Assembly: GCA_024640085.1 (NCBI GenBank) | Contig: JAHEFR010000006.1 | Coordinates: 1 to 64,000, forward strand | Source: Gammaproteobacteria bacterium | Lineage (GTDB): Bacteria > Pseudomonadota > Gammaproteobacteria > Steroidobacterales > XN24 | Direction of reading: 5' to 3' | Length of the DNA: 64,000 bases | Part shown: piece by piece, positions 28,101-34,824 of the stretch | Numbering within the stretch: position 1 is the stretch's first letter | Layout: each line of letters opens with the position of its first letter | The notes under the pieces: model-generated | The model's database searches: none | What the model saw: the letters and a program-made list of their open reading frames with translations, nothing else | What the model was told of the DNA's origin: nothing | Made by a program: the position numbers and the translations under genes

Positions 28101-28827
28101 CGTTGCTCTGCATGAACAGCAGCCGGGTGTCGCCGAGGGTGCCTGCCACGCCATCGATATAGCGCCTGAGGACTGGCGAGAGGTAGGCATCAGCCACCGT
28201 GGTGTCGCCTCGGGCGACCAGTTTTGCGAGGGCCCCGACGCGGTGAGAGACTGACACCTGCGGGAAGCCCGACTCCCGGGCAATTCTCTCGGCCATCCGT
28301 TCGTGATGGTGATGGCGGTAGCCGTGCATGAATACGATGGCGACCGACCTGTATCCGTCCCTGACCGCTTCCCTCAGATCGCGGCCCAGGGCCTCCTGGT
28401 CCAGCGGAGTGATCACCCCGCCGTCACTGTCGATCCTCTCGTCGACTTCGACGACCCGGCGGTAGAGGCTTTCCGGGAGTCGGATCTCCCGGTCGAACAG
28501 CCGCGGTCTTTGCTGGTAGCCGATTCGCAGCGCATCGCCGAAGCCCCGCGTAATCACCAGGACCGTGTCTTCGCCGTGTCGTTCCAGCAATGCATTCGTG
28601 GCCACTGTCGTGCCCATCTTGACCGCGTCGACGGCATCGTAGGAGCCCGGTGGCTGCCCGGCTTCGGCGAGTATCCGGTCGAGGCCGGCGATGGCGGCGT
28701 CATCGTAGCGATCCGGGTTCACCGACAGCAGCTTCCGGGCGATCAGACTGCCATCCGGGCAACGGGCGACCACGTCGGTGAACGTGCCGCCGCGATCGAT
28801 CCAGAATTGCCAGCCGCCTTGCGCCAA
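25186..28827 (-). CDS. Fused hydantoinase A/B-type protein, 5-oxoprolinase-like
   Basis: 1213-aa ATP-dependent amidase combining both subunits in one chain. The A half starts WIDRGGTFTDVVARCPDG, has MGTTVATNALLERHGE, GFDMGGTSTDVSLYDG and a glycine-rich AAGGGSVVDL. The B half begins near residue 690 (PILLEVFNNLFMHIAEQMG), with MPVHLGSMGDSV, NAPYGGGTHLPD and the C-terminal TPGGGGYGPP. This arrangement is that of eukaryotic-type 5-oxoprolinase OPLAH, which opens 5-oxo-L-proline to glutamate using ATP. Its length is close to those enzymes. TTG start with GGAG eight bases upstream. The gene diverges from the symporter operon. A hydantoinase or acetone-carboxylase-like activity is the main alternative. 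Confidence 0.88.
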   Translation of the reverse strand: MAQGGWQFWIDRGGTFTDVVARCPDGSLIARKLLSVNPDRYDDAAIAGLDRILAEAGQPPGSYDAVDAVKMGTTVATNALLERHGEDTVLVITRGFGDALRIGYQQRPRLFDREIRLPESLYRRVVEVDERIDSDGGVITPLDQEALGRDLREAVRDGYRSVAIVFMHGYRHHHHERMAERIARESGFPQVSVSHRVGALAKLVARGDTTVADAYLSPVLRRYIDGVAGTLGDTRLLFMQSNGGLAEAAHFRGKDSVLSGPAGGVVGMVETALRAGRSRMIGFDMGGTSTDVSLYDGVFERTLDSVVAGVRIQAPMMKVHTVAAGGGSVVDLVDGRLQVGPQSAGADPGPCCYRRGGPLTVTDANLLLGRIQPEFFPRVFGPGADLALDAESVRAAFGRMRSRIAKESGQDLPVEQIADGCLRIAVDRMAQAIKQISIQRGYDVSAFALCCFGGAAGQHACDVADALGMQDVLIHPLAGVLSAYGMGLADLRHIRHEAVEEPLTDAALVTLGERFRRLESAALAALAQQGADPASVHHQRRLLIRYGGTDTPLELPAGGAEEVAEAFDAAHRQQFGFAEKRERIVEAIALESTAPGGGSDGKIDSVAARGEADPVTVRPVYLAGRWRDAPVYRRDAIGPGTVIDGPALVVEANATTVVTPQWRLRADELGNLTLNRIRPRPRQAGLGTEADPILLEVFNNLFMHIAEQMGVVLEKTAHSVNIKERLDFSCALFDQKGGLVANAPHMPVHLGSMGDSVRTVIREFGGDMSQGDGFVLNAPYGGGTHLPDVTVITPCYATPEDTAPMFYVASRAHHADIGGITPGSMPPHSRRIDEEGVMIPCRPLVRSGRFLEEEIREILASGPFPARNPDRNIADLRAQLAANARGQEEVARMLGQFGVETTCAYMEHVQDNAEEAVRRAITDLSSGDFIYHMDDGSRIGVSISVDETKRSARIDFSATSSQSDRNFNAPLSVCRAAVLYVFRTLVDHDIPMNEGCLRPLELVVPEGTLLNPRPPAAVVAGNVETSQCVVDALYGALGVMAASQGTMNNVTFGNERYQYYETVCGGAGAGPDFAGASAVHTHMTNSRLTDPEVLEWRYPILLRRFSIRRGSGGDGRFRGGDGAIREIEFREAMSAAVLSGHRKVAPFGMAGGHDGVVGRNRLVRADGKTIDLGPTGAVQAEPGDVLIVETPGGGGYGPPGRAHGHVASGNGDE

Positions 28828-28930
28828 GTGCCCGTCTCCACCGTGCTACTGACGGCATTCTAACCGGCGACCGGCGCGGGCGTTCCGGAGGCGGTGATAC
28901 ACTCCGGCCAGCCCGGGAAGGCGCAGCGTC

Positions 28931-30343
28931 ATGACCAAGACACAGTCCATACTCGTCACTCTGGTGGCTTACAAGATGCTCCTGATCCTGATAGGTATCT
29001 GGGCCACCCGGAGGACGACGAGTCATGGCGAATTCTTCCTCGGAGGGCGGCGCCTCGGCGGGATGGTCGCGGCGATCAGCGCATCGGCCAGCTCGTCCTC
29101 GGCCTGGACCCTCCTGAGCGTCAGCGGCATGGCCTACCTGTGGGGGCTGCCCGCTCTGTGGCTGTTTCCCGCCACTCTGTCCGGATTCCTGATCAACTGG
29201 CTGTTTGTGGCGCCGCGGCTGATGCGGGAGAGCAACGCCAGCGGCGCCATTACGCTGACGGAATTCCTGGCCGGCTCGGTGGAGGAGCGGCGGCGTCCCG
29301 CCGTGCTCCGGCTGGGATCGGGCATCATTCTGTTCTCGTTCATGTTCTACATCGCCGCCCAGTTCCAGGCGGCGGGCGCGGCGTTCGCGAGTACCTTCGG
29401 CATGAATCTGGTGGTGGCCGTGCTGATCGGCGCCGGGGTCATCGTCCTGTATACGCTGCTCGGCGGTTTCTGGGCGGTGAGCGTAACCGATACGGTGCAG
29501 GGCCTGGTGATGGCCGGGACCGCGCTCTTCCTGCCCGCCGTCGCCCTGGCGGCCGCGGGCGGACCCGGTCCGTTGATCCAGGGCCTGGCCGCCCTGGATG
29601 GCCAGGGTATCCAGCCTCCGGCGGCCGGCATCGCCGGGCTGGGGTTCGTTCTCGGCATCCTCGGGATCGGTCTCGGTTATCCTGGACAACCCCACGTCGT
29701 CAACCGGTTTATGGCGCTTAGAGATGAGCAGGCGCTGCGTCGGGCCCGGGTCATCGCCATCGGCTGGGCGGTGGTTATCTACAGTGGCATGCTGCTGCTT
29801 GGGCTGGCCGGCCGGGTGCTCTATTTCGGGCTGGTGGACTCCGAGCAGATACTCTTCGAGGTGGCCAATCGGCTCATCTCGCCCGTCGCGGCTGGCATCA
29901 CGATCGCCGCCGTTCTATCCGCCATCATGTCTACCGCCGACAGCCAGCTGCTGGTCGCGGCGTCTTCCGTGACCCACGATCTGCCGGGCGCGCGGCTTGC
30001 GGGTCGGCAGACCCTGGCCCGGTCCCGGTGGGTGGTTGCGGCGCTGTCCGCCGTGGCTGTCTCGCTGGCCGTCGGCATCCCCGACTCCATCTTCAGCCGC
30101 GTCCTTTTCGCCTGGGCCGCGATCGGATCCGCCTTCGGCCCGCCCCTGGTCCTGGTCCTGCTGGGTTTCCGGCTGAGCGGCAGGGGACTGTTCCGGGCGA
30201 TGCTCGCCGGGTTCTCGCTGACGGTGCTGTTCCACTGGCTGCCGGACCTGCCGGCTCCCGGAGATGCTGTGGAACGCCTCGTCCCGCTGGCGGCGTCGGC
30301 ATGGATCGCCTATGCCACGCGAAAACGGGGGCCCGGGCAGTGA
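28931..30343 (+). CDS. Sodium:solute symporter family protein (PutP-like)
   Basis: 470-aa membrane protein with about 13 helices. The N-terminal portion EFFLGGRRLGGMVAAISASASSSSAWTLL is typical of SSSF/PutP symporters, and AAVLSAIMSTADSQLLVAAS, the conserved second sodium-site helix, is near 335-355. The start is preceded by GGAAGG nine bases upstream. It probably takes up proline or another solute with sodium. It heads a six-frame operon joined by overlaps and lies opposite the oxoprolinase gene across 103 bases; uptake of pyroglutamate or proline derivatives would link them, which is speculation. Confidence 0.9.
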   Translation: MTKTQSILVTLVAYKMLLILIGIWATRRTTSHGEFFLGGRRLGGMVAAISASASSSSAWTLLSVSGMAYLWGLPALWLFPATLSGFLINWLFVAPRLMRESNASGAITLTEFLAGSVEERRRPAVLRLGSGIILFSFMFYIAAQFQAAGAAFASTFGMNLVVAVLIGAGVIVLYTLLGGFWAVSVTDTVQGLVMAGTALFLPAVALAAAGGPGPLIQGLAALDGQGIQPPAAGIAGLGFVLGILGIGLGYPGQPHVVNRFMALRDEQALRRARVIAIGWAVVIYSGMLLLGLAGRVLYFGLVDSEQILFEVANRLISPVAAGITIAAVLSAIMSTADSQLLVAASSVTHDLPGARLAGRQTLARSRWVVAALSAVAVSLAVGIPDSIFSRVLFAWAAIGSAFGPPLVLVLLGFRLSGRGLFRAMLAGFSLTVLFHWLPDLPAPGDAVERLVPLAASAWIAYATRKRGPGQ

Positions 30344-31785
30344 AGCTCTCCCGCCCCGCCCGGGCCATGCTTGCGCTGGCCATCGTGCTTGCCGTCCTGG
30401 CCGCATCCGCCGCGGCCGTGAACCTCGCCGGATCCCTCGCGGACATCTGGCAGCGACTCAGGGACGGGCCGCTGCCCGTGTTTCTCGGGTTGCTGGTGTT
30501 CCTGGCGACCGTCGGTTGCGTGGGCGCGTGGCTGCTCTGGCGCCTGCTTGTACCGAGACGACGGCCACTGTCGAAGGCGGCTGCGCCGGACAAGGCGTCC
30601 CTGGAGCAGCGGATTTCTGAAGGACGGGTGCAGGGCATCGACGTGACCGCGGCGGAACGGGAACTGGAGGAACTCGCTCGCCGCAGGAATGCTGGGCGGC
30701 TCTACCTCTGCCTGTTCGGGGAGATCAGCACCGGAAAGTCGTCGCTGGTGAGGGCGCTGGCGCCGGAAGCGGAGACGGACGTAGGCGTATCGGGCGGCAC
30801 CACGCGGCAGGTCGGCCACTATCGGTGGCGTACGCCGGCGGGCGACGAAGTCCTGTTGGCAGACGTTCCCGGATCGGCACTGGATGCCGCGGATGACGAG
30901 GCCGGGCTGCAGGAAGCGATTCGTGCCCACGTGGTGCTCTACGTCTGTTCGGCGGACCTGACTCGGCGCCAGTTCGAGGATCTTACGGTCCTGGCGGCCG
31001 TGGAGAAACCCCTGGTGCTGGTGCTGAACAAGACTGACCTGTACACCGAGGACGAGGCGTCGCGGATCATGGACCGGCTGCGGCAGCGGCTGACCGAGGC
31101 CGGTGCAACGCGGGATTCGGAGGTGATAAGCGTCTCCACCCGGCGATCCGGCGAGGATGGTCGGACAGCCGGGATGGAATCGCTTCGCAAAGCGATCCAG
31201 CGGCGTATCGACTGCAGCCCGGAGGCCCTGGAGGCGCTCCGCGATCGCGCCGTCTTCTCGCTCGTGGACGAACGTCTGACGGCCGCAGAGCGCGCCCGTC
31301 GCCAGACGCACGCGGAAGCCCTGGTGGGCGGGTATACCCGCAAGGCGGTCATCGGGGCCCTTGCGGCTGTCAGCCCCGGAACCGACATCCTCATCCAGGG
31401 CTATCTCGGCCGCGGCATGATCCGCGACCTGTGCGGGCTGTACGAGGTGCCGGCCCGGGACGTGGACGTGGGCCGGCTGCTGGACCTGAGCCAGGGCTAC
31501 GTGGGCAAAATGCTGCCGATCACGCTGGCGTTGGCGGGAAATGCCCTGAAGGCGTTCCCCGGAGTCGGTACCATAGCGGGAGGGGTCACCCACGCAGTGG
31601 CCTATGGACTGATTTTCGACGCCCTCGGCAAGGGGCTCTCACGGTCGCTGGCGGAGGGAGGGGAGTTGCGTCCCGCGGCCGCCGCCCGGCGATTCAGGGA
31701 ATCCATGAGTGAGGATCTTGGCGCGCGCACGGTCCGCATTGCGCGGATGGTTATCCAGGAAGACAGAGAGACCGACCGCAACTGA
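30340..31785 (+). CDS. Membrane-anchored GTPase with DUF697-like C-terminus (first of two)
   Basis: 481-aa protein with two N-terminal transmembrane segments (about 8-30 and 46-70), then an Era/dynamin-like G domain: G1 GEISTGKS at 127-134, G3 DVPG at 175-178, G4 NKTD at 230-233. The C-terminal part (KAVIGALAAVSPGTDILIQGYLGRGMI, then LAGNALKAFPGVGTIAGG) resembles DUF697, a hydrophobic domain of the YcjF/YcjX-related proteins. Starts GTG inside the symporter stop (GTGA). It is followed with 77 bases of overlap by a second GTPase. A role in membrane stress or remodelling is inferred only from the architecture. Confidence 0.82.
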   Translation: MKLSRPARAMLALAIVLAVLAASAAAVNLAGSLADIWQRLRDGPLPVFLGLLVFLATVGCVGAWLLWRLLVPRRRPLSKAAAPDKASLEQRISEGRVQGIDVTAAERELEELARRRNAGRLYLCLFGEISTGKSSLVRALAPEAETDVGVSGGTTRQVGHYRWRTPAGDEVLLADVPGSALDAADDEAGLQEAIRAHVVLYVCSADLTRRQFEDLTVLAAVEKPLVLVLNKTDLYTEDEASRIMDRLRQRLTEAGATRDSEVISVSTRRSGEDGRTAGMESLRKAIQRRIDCSPEALEALRDRAVFSLVDERLTAAERARRQTHAEALVGGYTRKAVIGALAAVSPGTDILIQGYLGRGMIRDLCGLYEVPARDVDVGRLLDLSQGYVGKMLPITLALAGNALKAFPGVGTIAGGVTHAVAYGLIFDALGKGLSRSLAEGGELRPAAAARRFRESMSEDLGARTVRIARMVIQEDRETDRN

Positions 31786-33022
31786 TGTCGGCGGCGACGC
31801 TCACCTCGCTCTGGCGAAGGAGAGCCTGCGGGATCTGCTCGATGATCCCAGGGTGCCGCCCCAGGTCCGTTCGCACCTGGCTCAGGACTACGCCGCGGTT
31901 CGCCAGATGCTGGACAAGCTGGAGCACGGCCACGTCCACATCGCCGCCTTCGGCCGTGTCGGCGTGGGCAAATCTTCGTTGCTGAACGCCTTGCTGGGCG
32001 AGCCTCGCTTCTCGGCGAGCCCCCTGCACGGTGAGACCCGGGAAGCCGGCCGGGCGGTCTGGACCACGGCCGGCGACGGCGGCGTATTCCTGATCGATAC
32101 GCCGGGTATCGACGAGATCGGTGGCGAGGAACGGGAGCAGGCAGCTCGGGACGCCGCGGATCGGGCCGACCTTCTGATCTTCGTCGTCGAGGGCGACATG
32201 ACCGGGTCCGAACTCGATGTCCTCGGACACATGGCCGGCCAGGGCCGGCCCCTGCTGCTGGTCCTGAACAAGTCCGATCGTTATTCCATGGCTGAACTCG
32301 AGCAGTTGCGGCGACGGCTGGAGGAACGCACGCGGGGCCTGATCGCGTCCGAGAACATCATCCCGGTGGCCGCTGACCCGAGGGCGGGGCGGGCGTCTGA
32401 CGTCGAGGGGCTGCGGTCGAGACTGTGGTCGATCCTGGAGTCCGAGGGCAAGACCCTGGCCGCAATGAACGCCAGCATCTTTGCCGGGCACCTCAGCGAG
32501 GCAGTCGGCCGGCGCGTCGTCGAAGTGAGGAAACAAGTGGCCGATCGGGTCGTGCGGACCTACTGCGTGGCGAAGGGTGTGGCGGTGGCGTTCAATCCGG
32601 TACCCGTCGCAGACCTGGCCGCCGCGGCGCTGGTGGACGCCGGCATGGTGGTGCACCTGTCCCGCGTCTACGGACTCCCCCTGACGCGCAACGAGGCCGG
32701 TTCCCTGATATCCGTGATTCTGACCCAGATGGCGGCACTGATGGGTGCCGTCTGGGCCGTGCACCTGCTGTCGTCGGCGCTCAAGCTCGGCACCGGGGGC
32801 GCGTCTGTCTTACTGACCGCGGGCGCCCAGGGGGCCGTGGCGTACTACAGCACCTATGTCGTCGGCCGGGCGGCGGAGAGGTACTTCTCCCTGGGCAAGT
32901 CCTGGGGGGACGGCGGGCCGCGGGCCGTGGTGGCCGAGATCCTCGAGTCGGTGGATCGCCGGTCCATCCTGAAGCAGGCCCAGCAGGAACTCGGCGAGCG
33001 GTTACGGGGCGTCCGAGCGTGA
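31709..33022 (+). CDS. GTPase with hydrophobic C-terminal domain (second of two)
   Basis: 437-aa protein without N-terminal membrane segments. G1 is GRVGVGKS at 82-89, G3 DTPG at 130-133, G4 NKSD at 187-190. The C-terminal third has hydrophobic helices (ADLAAAALVDAGMVVHLSRVYGL, then MAALMGAVWAVHLLSSALKL and VLLTAGAQGAVAYYSTYVVGRA), again DUF697-like. The frame starts GTG at 31709, overlapping the end of the first GTPase by 77 bases; the first ~30 residues are basic and could be trimmed by later starts. Two tandem GTPases of this kind suggest a heterodimer, as in paired bacterial dynamin-like proteins. Confidence 0.82.
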   Translation: MRILARARSALRGWLSRKTERPTATDVGGDAHLALAKESLRDLLDDPRVPPQVRSHLAQDYAAVRQMLDKLEHGHVHIAAFGRVGVGKSSLLNALLGEPRFSASPLHGETREAGRAVWTTAGDGGVFLIDTPGIDEIGGEEREQAARDAADRADLLIFVVEGDMTGSELDVLGHMAGQGRPLLLVLNKSDRYSMAELEQLRRRLEERTRGLIASENIIPVAADPRAGRASDVEGLRSRLWSILESEGKTLAAMNASIFAGHLSEAVGRRVVEVRKQVADRVVRTYCVAKGVAVAFNPVPVADLAAAALVDAGMVVHLSRVYGLPLTRNEAGSLISVILTQMAALMGAVWAVHLLSSALKLGTGGASVLLTAGAQGAVAYYSTYVVGRAAERYFSLGKSWGDGGPRAVVAEILESVDRRSILKQAQQELGERLRGVRA

Positions 33023-33372
33023 AATCTCCGTGGGCAGAGGTCGCGAAGCGGGTCCGGGACACGGTGGCGCGGATCCCGGCCGGACAGGTAGCGACCTACG
33101 GGCAGATCGCCCGGGAATCAGGACTCGGACGACGGGCCAGGATGGTGGGCAGGGCCCTGCGAAGTCTCCCTGACGGCAGCGAGGTCCCGTGGCACCGCGT
33201 GGTCAACGCTCGCGGGCAGATCTCCCTGCCCGACAGCAGCGAGGCCGGGCAGGAGCAGAGGCGGCGCCTGGAATCAGAGGGCGTGGTGTTCAGGGCGGGT
33301 CGGATCGATCTGGCCGAATACCGGTGGCGACCGTCGCTGGACGAATTACTCTGGGGTCCACCGGATTCATGA
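33019..33372 (+). CDS. Alkyltransferase-like (ATL) DNA-repair protein
   Basis: 117-aa MGMT-fold protein. The motif that contains the alkyl-accepting Cys in MGMT (PCHR) reads P57-W-H-R60 here, as in Atl1/YbaZ, so it cannot dealkylate DNA itself. YGQIARESG and GRALRSLPDG supply the DNA-binding helix-turn-helix region. ATL proteins bind O6-alkylguanine, flip it out and recruit nucleotide excision repair. It starts GTG overlapping the GTPase stop (GTGA) and ends overlapping a 45-codon frame (ATGA). The presence of a DNA-lesion sensor in a membrane-GTPase operon is unusual. Confidence 0.9.
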   Translation: MKSPWAEVAKRVRDTVARIPAGQVATYGQIARESGLGRRARMVGRALRSLPDGSEVPWHRVVNARGQISLPDSSEAGQEQRRRLESEGVVFRAGRIDLAEYRWRPSLDELLWGPPDS

Positions 33373-33506
33373 ACGACGGGTCGGCCTGTCCGGTTTCGTC
33401 CGAGGGCCCCTTCCTCGAGGTCCTGACGCCCTGGCGGCCGGCAGGCCCGCCACCGGCCGATGGCGCCGGCCCCCCCGCCGCCGGTTTTCAGGGACCGCCA
33501 CGTTGA
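33369..33506 (+). CDS. Possible Pro/Gly-rich small ORF bridging two genes (45 aa)
   Basis: ATG start inside the stop of the ATL gene (ATGA) and TGA stop inside the TTG start of the hydrolase (TTGA). The peptide starts MNDGSACPVSSEGPFLEVL and then is dominated by Pro, Ala and Gly. Exact overlap at both ends is what links it to the operon. It could be a coupling leader rather than a functional protein. No family recognised. Confidence 0.35.
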   Translation: MNDGSACPVSSEGPFLEVLTPWRPAGPPPADGAGPPAAGFQGPPR

Positions 33507-34012
33507 CGCTGCCGCTCGTCTGTTTCTCGCACGGTCAGGATAGCGGGCCCTGGGGGACCAAGATTTGCGCCATGGCCGAGGCTGCCCGCAAAGGGGGATT
33601 CCCGGTCGAGTCAGTGGACTACCGGGGAATGCCGGACCCGGCCGACAGGGTGGCGAAGCTCGTGGATTACTGCCGAAGTCTGGCCCTGCCCCCGCTGCTG
33701 GTGGGGTCGAGCATGGGCGGCCACGTCGCTGCCGCGGCTTCCGCGGTGATCCGCGCCGGCGGCCTCTTCCTGATCGCACCGGCGTTCTACATGCGTGGAT
33801 ACGAGGGCCTGACGCCCGAGCCCGGGTGCAAGAGGATCGTTATCGTGCACGGCTGGAGCGACGAAGTGGTGCCGGTGGAGAACAGCATCCGCTGGGCCCG
33901 GGATCATGGCGCAGACCTGCACTTGATCCGCGGCGACCACAGACTGACCGCCGAACTGGACAAGGTGCTCTCCTTGTTCGGCAGTTTTCTGTCCGACCGG
34001 GCAGGCCGTTGA
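33503..34012 (+). CDS. Alpha/beta hydrolase
   Basis: 169-aa small alpha/beta hydrolase. The nucleophile elbow is GSSMGGH, with FSHGQDSGPWG at the N-terminus as oxyanion region, and the late acid/base residues are suggested by HGWSDEVVPVE and GDHRL. TTG start with AGGGA eight bases upstream, overlapping the small ORF (TTGA). It resembles the short YqiA/RBBP9-like esterases more than the larger lipases. It is the last gene of the 29-34 kb operon; a terminator overlaps its stop. Confidence 0.8.
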   Translation: MTLPLVCFSHGQDSGPWGTKICAMAEAARKGGFPVESVDYRGMPDPADRVAKLVDYCRSLALPPLLVGSSMGGHVAAAASAVIRAGGLFLIAPAFYMRGYEGLTPEPGCKRIVIVHGWSDEVVPVENSIRWARDHGADLHLIRGDHRLTAELDKVLSLFGSFLSDRAGR

Positions 34013-34034
34013 GCCTGGGCTCAGAATTTTTTTT
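34010..34034 (+). terminator. Intrinsic terminator at the end of the GTPase/ATL operon
   Basis: TGAGCC-TG-GGCTCA (functionally a 5-bp stem with a CTGG loop) begins in the stop codon of the hydrolase gene and is followed after GAA by eight T residues. It is one of only two U-tract hairpins I found in the window. It lies over the 3' end of the convergent SDR gene, where it encodes that protein's last residues on the other strand. Confidence 0.7.
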
Positions 34035-34824
34035 CGATCGCCTTCCTGGCGATACGGTCGATCAGCCCCGGCGCCAGCACCTTTAGCCATCGCCCGAGCC
34101 TGCCTCGTCGGGACGTGATCAGCAGTCGTTGCCGTCCGGCCATGGCGTCTACGATCAGGGCTGCGCAGCGCTCGGCCGTCATGATGCGGCTCTCGTGCAT
34201 CGGTGTCTCGCCCAGCGGCCTGCCGTCCGCGCCGAGTGCCCGGCGGTGGATCTGGGTGACCACGAAATCCGGGGCGACCACCGTCACCGATACGCCGCTT
34301 TCGGCCAGTTCGATGCGGAGCGAGTCGAAGAAGCCGATCATGGCGTGCTTGGAGGCGCTGTATCCGGTGCGTTCGGGGACCCCGGTGAGCCCGGCGACGC
34401 TGGCTACCGCCACGATACGGCCGCGGCTCTGTTTGAGGTATGGCAGGGCGGCCGCCGTGCAATACGCGGCGCCGAAGTAATTCACGTCCATGACGGTCCT
34501 GAGGACCCCGAGATCCTCCAGGCGGTCCAGTCGCGACCACATGGTGGCGCCGGCGTTGGCCACCAGCGTATCGATTCGGCCGAAAGCGTCCACCGCCTGT
34601 CGGATCAATTGCCGGCACTGGATCTCGTCCGTGACGTCCGCCGGGACTGCCAGACACTCCGCGCCCATGGCGTGACACTCTCCCGCCAGGCTCTCGAGGC
34701 GCTCGCGATTCCTGGCCGACAGAACCAGCTTGGGCTTCTGGGGCGCCAGGGCAAGTGCCAGCGCCCGGCCGATACCTTCGGACGCGCCCGTCAGGATGAT
34801 GACGTTGCCGGTGAATGTACTCAT
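34021..34824 (-). CDS. SDR family oxidoreductase
   Basis: 267-aa SDR. IILTGASEGIGRALA near residue 8, VANAGATMW in place of NNAG, and AVASVAGL...YSASKHAM with the catalytic Tyr and Lys. The C-terminal stretch RGRLGRWLKVLAPGLIDRIARKAI is a basic helix often seen in membrane-associated SDRs related to 17-beta-HSD/ DHRS7. Start chosen at 34824 (MSTFTGNV); the longer frame adds a segment unlike SDR N-termini. It is convergent with the hydrolase operon. Substrate unknown. Confidence 0.85.
   Translation of the reverse strand: MSTFTGNVIILTGASEGIGRALALALAPQKPKLVLSARNRERLESLAGECHAMGAECLAVPADVTDEIQCRQLIRQAVDAFGRIDTLVANAGATMWSRLDRLEDLGVLRTVMDVNYFGAAYCTAAALPYLKQSRGRIVAVASVAGLTGVPERTGYSASKHAMIGFFDSLRIELAESGVSVTVVAPDFVVTQIHRRALGADGRPLGETPMHESRIMTAERCAALIVDAMAGRQRLLITSRRGRLGRWLKVLAPGLIDRIARKAIEKKF

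Follow-up and report, generated by a model that had tools for sequence, protein, structure and literature searches.

A nearly inseparable pair of DUF697-type GTPase genes sharing a 77-nucleotide double-coding overlap: candidate subunits of one membrane-bound complex

DUF697, whose name still stands for a domain of unknown function, is the domain of YcjF, a membrane protein encoded beside the GTPase YcjX in the enterobacterial Psp regulon, the GTPase and DUF697 domains of that pair lying on different proteins. The DUF697 literature that we found consists of single mentions within the text of papers, with none in a title or abstract. Tandem paralogous GTPases are known among the bacterial dynamin-like proteins (DLPs), as in Campylobacter jejuni DLP1/2, LeoA/LeoBC, the Nostoc BDLP tandem and IniA/IniC; according to excerpts of one report, the majority of bacterial DLP genes occur as pairs within operons, and the two C. 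jejuni proteins assemble into 2:2 tetramers capable of tethering liposomes (PMC6104087). Here we describe two overlapping GTPase genes with DUF697-like C-termini, termed g1 and g2, in a window comprising the whole stretch of 64,000 nucleotides (nt) at positions 1 to 64,000 of contig JAHEFR010000006.1 (assembly GCA_024640085.1), from a gammaproteobacterium of the Steroidobacterales (XN24). We put at about 0.6 the probability that g1 and g2 encode two subunits of one membrane-bound GTPase complex; that such a complex would be built like the paired bacterial DLPs is our best reading of the analogy, membership of that group not being provable.

The first-pass annotation had described tandem GTPase reading frames overlapping by 77 bases, with G1, G3 and G4 motifs in both proteins and two N-terminal transmembrane (TM) helices in one of them, and all of these were found in place, as follows.

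30340..31785, + strand: g1, a membrane-anchored GTPase of 481 amino acids, from GTG at 30340 to TGA at 31783-31785; two N-terminal TM helices, a compact G domain and a divergent DUF697-like domain
30364..30420, + strand: g1 TM1, residues 9-27 (mean Kyte-Doolittle hydropathy 2.61; helix 5-41 in the model)
30478..30534, + strand: g1 TM2, residues 47-65 (mean Kyte-Doolittle hydropathy 2.35; helix 45-70 in the model)
30718..30741, + strand: g1 G1/P-loop, GEISTGKS
30862..30873, + strand: g1 G3, DVPG
31027..31038, + strand: g1 G4, NKTD
31342..31719, + strand: g1 DUF697-like helical domain with a glycine-rich hydrophobic hairpin (KAFPGVGTIAGG...), placed by hhalign to the g2 profile
31696..31700, + strand: possible Shine-Dalgarno (SD) sequence AGGGA within g1, 8 nt before the g2 GTG, read from the sequence
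31709..31785, + strand: double-coding overlap of 77 nt, to which g1 contributes 24 complete codons, two bases and its stop, and g2 its first 25 codons
31709..33022, + strand: g2, a GTPase of 437 amino acids lacking an N-terminal TM segment, from GTG at 31709 to TGA at 33020-33022; a basic N-terminal segment, a G domain and DUF697
31952..31975, + strand: g2 G1/P-loop, GRVGVGKS
32096..32107, + strand: g2 G3, DTPG
32267..32278, + strand: g2 G4, NKSD
32486..32956, + strand: g2 DUF697 domain (PF05128; 115.1-118 bits, curated cut-off 27.7)
32705..32890, + strand: g2 hydrophobic helical hairpin, residues 333-394 (helices 327-359 and 365-394, tip of low confidence), a candidate membrane-inserting element in the model

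In common with the DLP pairs named above, g1 and g2 are tandem paralogous GTPases with helices on both sides of the G domain and predicted membrane contact. They differ in their compact NKxD G domain, in their length of 437-481 amino acids, in the replacement of trunk and paddle by DUF697, in the TM hairpin of one partner and in a gene overlap of 60-95 nt, and the structural match is weak and not global. With YcjX/YcjF they share the neighbourhood of GTPase and DUF697, but here both proteins carry both domains. An identity with YcjX/YcjF was considered and rejected: the YcjX DUF463 domain (PF04317) had no match in g1 or g2 at E 0.01; TIGR01620, presumably the YcjF family, scored 18.7 bits with g2, far under its cut-off of 160, and did not list g1; and YcjX was found in none of 246 genomes sampled across the order, the Escherichia coli control being positive.

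In the sampled proteobacteria, one gene hardly ever occurs without the other. Among 59 relatives, g1 was found in 26 and g2 in the identical 26 at E < 1e-50, matches weaker than this being to other GTPases or to the paralogue, and in the 246 genomes of the order sample g1 was present in 78 and g2 in 77 (E 1e-60); in the 78th g1 genome (G358), g1 lies close to the end of its contig, which interrupts g2 after its first part. Conservation of adjacency, a check proposed in the first-pass annotation, was borne out within the order, the listed places being adjacent on one contig in 75 of the 78 genomes; in G454 and G497 the genes are on different contigs and g1 is truncated. Presence of the pair is patchy, families f4 and f10 each mixing genomes that have both genes with genomes that have neither. 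A wider sample of 299 genomes from the phylum contained both genes in 11, the window's own included, and neither gene without its partner in any (E 1e-20 and 1e-40); the genes were adjacent in 10 of the 11. In a collection of named organisms, both genes occurred, among the matches listed, at 14 of 14 proteobacterial loci (L062-L075), which include Sedimenticola, Thiotrichaceae, Leucothrix, Arenicellales, Marinicella and Plasticicumulans, g1 being cut by the contig end at L063 and L064. Pairwise distances of g1 and g2 correlate with r 0.95 over 85 loci; as this was computed without a control gene, it shows common inheritance and not contact. Three genomes (G068, G139 and G199; loci L239, L240 and L241) carry extra g1-like GTPase open reading frames (ORFs) scoring 168-232 bits with the g1 profile; these lie away from the pair on fetched stretches lacking g2, and two contain one in-frame stop.

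The overlap is not a matter of chance and is constrained in both frames. The g2 start lies 60-95 bases ahead of the g1 stop at 86 of 94 pair loci, in one phase in all 86; among the other eight, the genes are separated at L236, overlap by 4 nt at L238 and L242-L245 and by 20 or 41 nt at L246, and do not overlap at L247. Several families of the order retain the long overlap, as do G262 (L237), which belongs to a different order of the class, and named loci including Sedimenticola, Plasticicumulans and Marinicella. At fourfold-degenerate sites of g1, 2100 of 8892 site-pairs differ within the overlap (0.236) against 75001 of 123095 upstream of it (0.609), in a comparison of 1264 sequence pairs whose site-pairs are not independent. 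When loci were aligned on the g2 start, a few of them, the window's own included, using another start codon in range, g1 divergence was 0.62 in the four codons before the start and 0.35, 0.27, 0.04 and 0.31 in the four bins that follow; codons -8 to -5 gave 27 of 64 (0.42). A control at these loci, the 3' end of g2, was almost flat (0.602 versus 0.624).

Stop codons point the same way. No g2-frame stop interrupts the overlap at any of 85 loci, whereas synonymous resampling of g1 codons led us to expect one at 27 of the 85 on average (never fewer than 20 across 200 replicates); in the third frame, 30 of 85 are interrupted. Identity in the g2 frame (0.161 versus a null of 0.115) is in itself no proof, because the third frame also exceeds its null (0.199 versus 0.144), and it is the stop counts that decide. 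Upstream of the g2 start, an SD-like match of 4 nt or longer is seen at 81 % of the 85 loci, against 15 % at control positions, a scan that used TTG 31718 for the window although alignment with relatives favours GTG 31709; g2 may therefore be initiated both by coupling and in its own right. An excerpt of one study reports that short overlaps are over-represented between genes for subunits of heteromeric complexes (PMC10666635), and the longest genuine co-directional overlap in a 338-genome survey of 2008 was 56 base pairs (bp) in the part of it available (PMC2478687). Long overlaps are rare and yet not unheard of, since excerpts of a further report describe Thermus rnpA-rpmH as a fully nested co-directional pair (PMC9841429). 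Like that pair and holD-rimI (at most 56 bp), g1/g2 is a genuine co-directional overlap; it differs in joining paralogues over about 60-95 nt and in being kept across families.

Both proteins would be expected to bind GTP and hydrolyse it. In orthologue rows from the 26 pair loci, truncated loci excluded (22 rows for g2 and 23 for g1), G3 reads DTPG in 22/22 g2 rows and D[VIL]PG in 23/23 g1 rows, G4 reads NKxD in every row of both, and the G1 pattern GxxxxGK[ST] is present in 23/23 g1 and 21/22 g2 rows, the remaining g2 row being masked at that site. Pfam MMR_HSR1, the TrmE-Era-EngA type, matches g1 with 45.2 and g2 with 64.4 bits (cut-off 21.9) and outscores Dynamin_N in both, the latter reaching 37.1 bits in g2, over the cut-off of 27 though with a short best stretch of 24 residues, and 16.4 bits in g1, under it. 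The DUF697-like C-termini noted at first pass stand for g2, which is over the Pfam cut-off, and are probable for g1 by profile alignment, the window's g1 itself having no Pfam DUF697 match at E 0.01; of its orthologues, that at L062 matches with 36.0 bits and that at L075 does not at E 0.001. Since profile alignment of g1 with g2 extends over 356 columns and takes in both the G domain and DUF697 (hhalign probability 100, E 2.7e-49), the two proteins are paralogues over nearly their full length. The description of g2 as free of TM helices is correct for the N-terminus, where a hydropathy scan found no hydrophobic segment, and needs qualifying because the N-terminus is short and basic and DUF697 holds the hydrophobic hairpin, the hydrophobic stretches of the C-terminal domain being 291-309 and 333-351 (Kyte-Doolittle 1.78 and 1.98). 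The hydrophobic moment of the g2 N-terminus exceeds that of shuffled sequences at ≤0.05 in 7 of 22 rows, and tryptophan is slightly in excess (2.08 versus a null mean of 1.75, maximum 1.94); an amphipathic g2 N-terminus that targets the membrane is a possibility.

AlphaFold2 models were obtained for g1 (mean predicted local distance difference test score, pLDDT, 80.5; predicted template modelling score, pTM, 0.68; 13 sequences) and g2 (pLDDT 82.5, pTM 0.71, 32 sequences). A Foldseek search with the g2 model placed mitofusin 2, mitofusin 1 and BDLP at the top and LeoA at rank 11, and VIA-align superposed g2 on Fzo1 (9kfd_B) over 272 residues (Z 18.5, root-mean-square deviation 6.0) and on MFN1 (5yew_A) over 268 (Z 18.4, 6.3), alignments that reach past the G domain to the helices on both sides. 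With the g1 model, Foldseek listed ribosome-factor G domains first, immunity-related GTPases at ranks 5-9, LeoA at rank 31 and the C. jejuni pair at rank 37. A sequence search with DUF697 alone found no relative in the PDB (best E 1.5). The models thus hint at a dynamin-like arrangement, more for g2 than for g1.

Relatives of both proteins occur in cyanobacteria. The 14 cyanobacterial genomes searched were found by their soluble DUF697 type, two further genomes in that search being proteobacterial, and all 14 also encode a frame of 509-628 amino acids that is similar to both profiles and has two N-terminal hydrophobic segments (at least 1.8 in 13 of 14 by the main scan; the second segment of L280 comes from a separate scan). 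The two TM-hairpin-type proteins that were scanned match DUF697 with 193.7 and 184.2 bits. A third type, the slr1306 family (NF049994, cut-off 490), was recognized at L285 and L282 (714 and 606 bits; two of four members run), and in two of the 14 genomes (L282, L283) a member and a soluble DUF697 GTPase form a tandem. We rejected the idea that slr1306 represents the soluble type, soluble proteins scoring 131 and 126 bits against 714 and 606 on the TM side, and dropped the idea that it is itself a TM-hairpin protein, its N-termini being weakly hydrophobic (best segment 1.42-1.88 in four proteins, and at least 1.8 in one of them); it only groups with the TM type. Two scanned members lack a Pfam GTPase domain at E 0.001. 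At L282 (2125-3681) an slr1306-family protein lies directly upstream of the soluble GTPase; we did not find DxxG by eye, and with its degenerate G domain this protein is possibly a pseudo-GTPase partner.

The cyanobacterial proteins resemble g1/g2 in combining TM-bearing and soluble DUF697 proteins with P-loop domains, in tandem in two genomes, and differ in being mostly unlinked, in the weakly hydrophobic N-termini of the slr1306 family, and in that g1 and g2 fall under the NF049994 cut-off (59.6 and 111.6 bits). In a tree of 78 rows, g1, g2, the cyanobacterial soluble type, the TM-hairpin type and the slr1306 family each form one clade, the soluble type sister to g2 and the slr1306 family sister to the TM-hairpin type. 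Long branches make the position of g1 uncertain; the three Era-like outgroup rows attach to the long branch of g1, and the program flags possible long-branch attraction at the root. The tree is compatible with an old split between TM and soluble partners but does not prove it.

Near-exceptionless co-inheritance and shared, doubly read bases suggest that the pair is probably one machine, and our working hypothesis for its action is as follows. The N-terminal TM hairpin would anchor g1 in the inner membrane and leave the g1 G domain in the cytoplasm, a topology that we infer because basic residues flank both outer ends of the hairpin, and g2 would reach the same membrane through physical interaction with g1, its own basic N-terminal segment and/or the DUF697 hairpin. 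Nucleotide-dependent pairing of the paralogous G domains might then move the DUF697 helical domains against the bilayer and so tether or reshape it, or gate an assembly there, as proposed by analogy with heterotypic bacterial DLP pairs described in excerpts of three papers (PMC6104087, PMC5827413, PMC4159319). The long overlap would tie g2 production to g1 on one message by translational coupling, and the SD-like sites would also permit g2 initiation on its own.

A number of observations weigh against this hypothesis. The obligate heterodimer at the membrane suggested in the first-pass annotation is supported in proteobacteria by co-occurrence, adjacency, correlated distances, the conserved overlap and the g1 TM hairpin; in cyanobacteria, however, the two types lie at separate loci, as the same annotation had said would count against pairing, the TM-hairpin type having no soluble partner within about 3 kb in any of the 14 genomes. 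Among the proteobacteria sampled, g1 and g2 lie about 2 kb apart in G212. (Other genes fill that interval, L236 3463-5423, and by eye one intervening ORF resembles what we take to be cytochrome b561.) In the eight pairs without the long overlap, divergence in the last 24 codons of g1 is also low, 18/53 (0.34) versus 0.611 upstream, a control that, with its few and dependent sites, cannot be fully dismissed. The coupling work cited above covers short overlaps and not one of 77 nt, and the g2 N-terminus is no more positively charged than g1 codons dictate (net 3.95 versus 4.38 under a null that keeps g1 coding). The likeness to paired dynamins, also proposed at first pass, draws on the Foldseek ranks of mitofusins and BDLP for g2, with TM-scores to dynamins of about 0.27-0.36 of the query, and is opposed by the compact NKxD G domains and by VIA-align, in which the non-dynamin G domain of Era is best for g2 (Z 21.1, 167 residues), G-domain matches to SelB (Z 21.0) and Era (20.7) are best for g1, and dynamin is absent among the best 50 rows listed for g1.

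The pair is flanked in the window by the following features, in the order SSF symporter - g1 - g2 - alkyltransferase-like (ATL) gene - alpha/beta hydrolase.

28931..30343, + strand: SSF sodium:solute symporter (PutP-like; Pfam SSF 208 bits), first gene of the apparent operon
33019..33372, + strand: ATL gene (Pfam DNA_binding_1 83.8 bits)
33503..34012, + strand: alpha/beta hydrolase (Pfam Abhydrolase_6 33.3 bits), which probably closes the transcription unit
34009..34024, + strand: terminator-like hairpin and T-run, from a pattern scan that gave three sites in 28700-34100 against 1.7 expected

Overlaps of 4 nt (GTGA) join symporter to g1 and g2 to the ATL gene. The latter, as read from the sequence, has PWHR with tryptophan at the catalytic cysteine position, PWHR in place of PCHR being, we assume, the ATL hallmark; ATL proteins are of a DNA-repair accessory type, and an obvious link to the GTPases is lacking. 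At least the start of an ATL gene lies behind g2 at 43 of 47 loci L188-L234 (mostly family f7) and at 12 of 23 loci L002-L024. At the 14 named loci, neighbours are common to one set of three only and the ATL gene occurs at L067 only. A statement that the pair has no conserved neighbour, drawn from these 14 loci and the window with ORFs of at least 90 amino acids, proved too broad and was withdrawn, as the ATL gene recurs within the order.

We considered whether g1 and g2 might instead be independent regulators that share an operon and its expression control, their overlap a frozen accident and their products not binding each other. Cyanobacterial TM and soluble members at separate loci favour this, as does the reduction of the overlap to 4 nt or nothing in the distant pairs L238, L242-L245 and L247, because of which the overlap must be dispensable in places; independent regulators would nevertheless hardly show near-perfect co-occurrence with parallel absence of both genes within f4 and f10, nor would mere operon sharing leave the pair without a common neighbour at most of the 14 named loci, and we regard the proposal as unlikely. 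Equally unlikely in our estimation is a membrane-stress module acting with PspA as an analogue of YcjX-YcjF. PspA is present in 74 of 78 pair genomes versus 37 of 168 without the pair (74/4/37/131), as raw counts well in excess of chance, and the weak TIGR01620 match of g2 leans the same way. Yet this association is confounded by phylogeny and a lead only, because 54 of the 78 pair genomes come from family f7 and families f2, f6, f8 and f9 have PspA without the pair; YcjX is missing from the order sample; and, where places were compared, pspA is not beside the pair, lying on a different contig in G000 and at a distance exceeding 1 Mb in G365 and G387.

The symporter directly upstream of g1, with its 4-nt overlap, raises the alternative that the pair acts as a GTP-gated switch on a membrane transporter, such as one for inorganic carbon or sodium:solute uptake, and not as a membrane remodeller; a similar SSF gene stands upstream at 10 of 26 g1-centred loci, the window's included, and slr1306 is reportedly a putative CO2-concentrating gene, judging by the title alone of a 2008 paper by Zhang. 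Against it, SSF was found at 0/14 named loci (L062-L064 and L072 having almost no upstream sequence), both g1 and g2 fall under the slr1306 family cut-off, and RuBisCO is distributed independently of the pair (both in 11 of the 246 genomes, pair only in 67, RuBisCO only in 25, neither in 143; odds ratio 0.94), for which reason a link to CO2 fixation, prompted by the slr1306 title, was rejected. We think such a transporter role improbable. That the overlap is a start misprediction, g2 in truth beginning after the g1 stop, would agree with the 2008 survey, which in the part available judged all 715 co-directional overlaps longer than 60 bp to be errors (PMC2478687). It is contradicted by the step in synonymous divergence at the predicted g2 start, by the missing g2-frame stops where 27 were expected and by the SD-like sites, and in the window no in-frame ATG, GTG or TTG follows the g1 stop until the GTG of codon 49, which already lies in the conserved region; we therefore consider misprediction very improbable indeed.

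New in this study are the near-inseparability of the pair in proteobacteria, the double-coding overlap and the unlinked TM and soluble DUF697 types of cyanobacteria. A wider and distinctly speculative view, which we hold to be doubtful, is that TM-hairpin and soluble DUF697 GTPases form an ancient two-part membrane machine predating the split of Proteobacteria and Cyanobacteria, that in several proteobacterial lineages anchor and partner were locked into one translational unit by a conserved double-coding overlap that might rank among the longest co-directional ones known from bacteria, and that the CO2-concentration phenotype of slr1306, which belongs to the TM-type clade, might be a defect of membrane organization. 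Should g1 and g2 indeed be subunits of one complex, they would constitute a compact two-gene system for heterotypic GTPase pairing at the bacterial membrane, would tie together several orphan DUF697 proteins and would provide a well-supported counter-example to the rule that co-directional overlaps of more than 60 bp are annotation errors.

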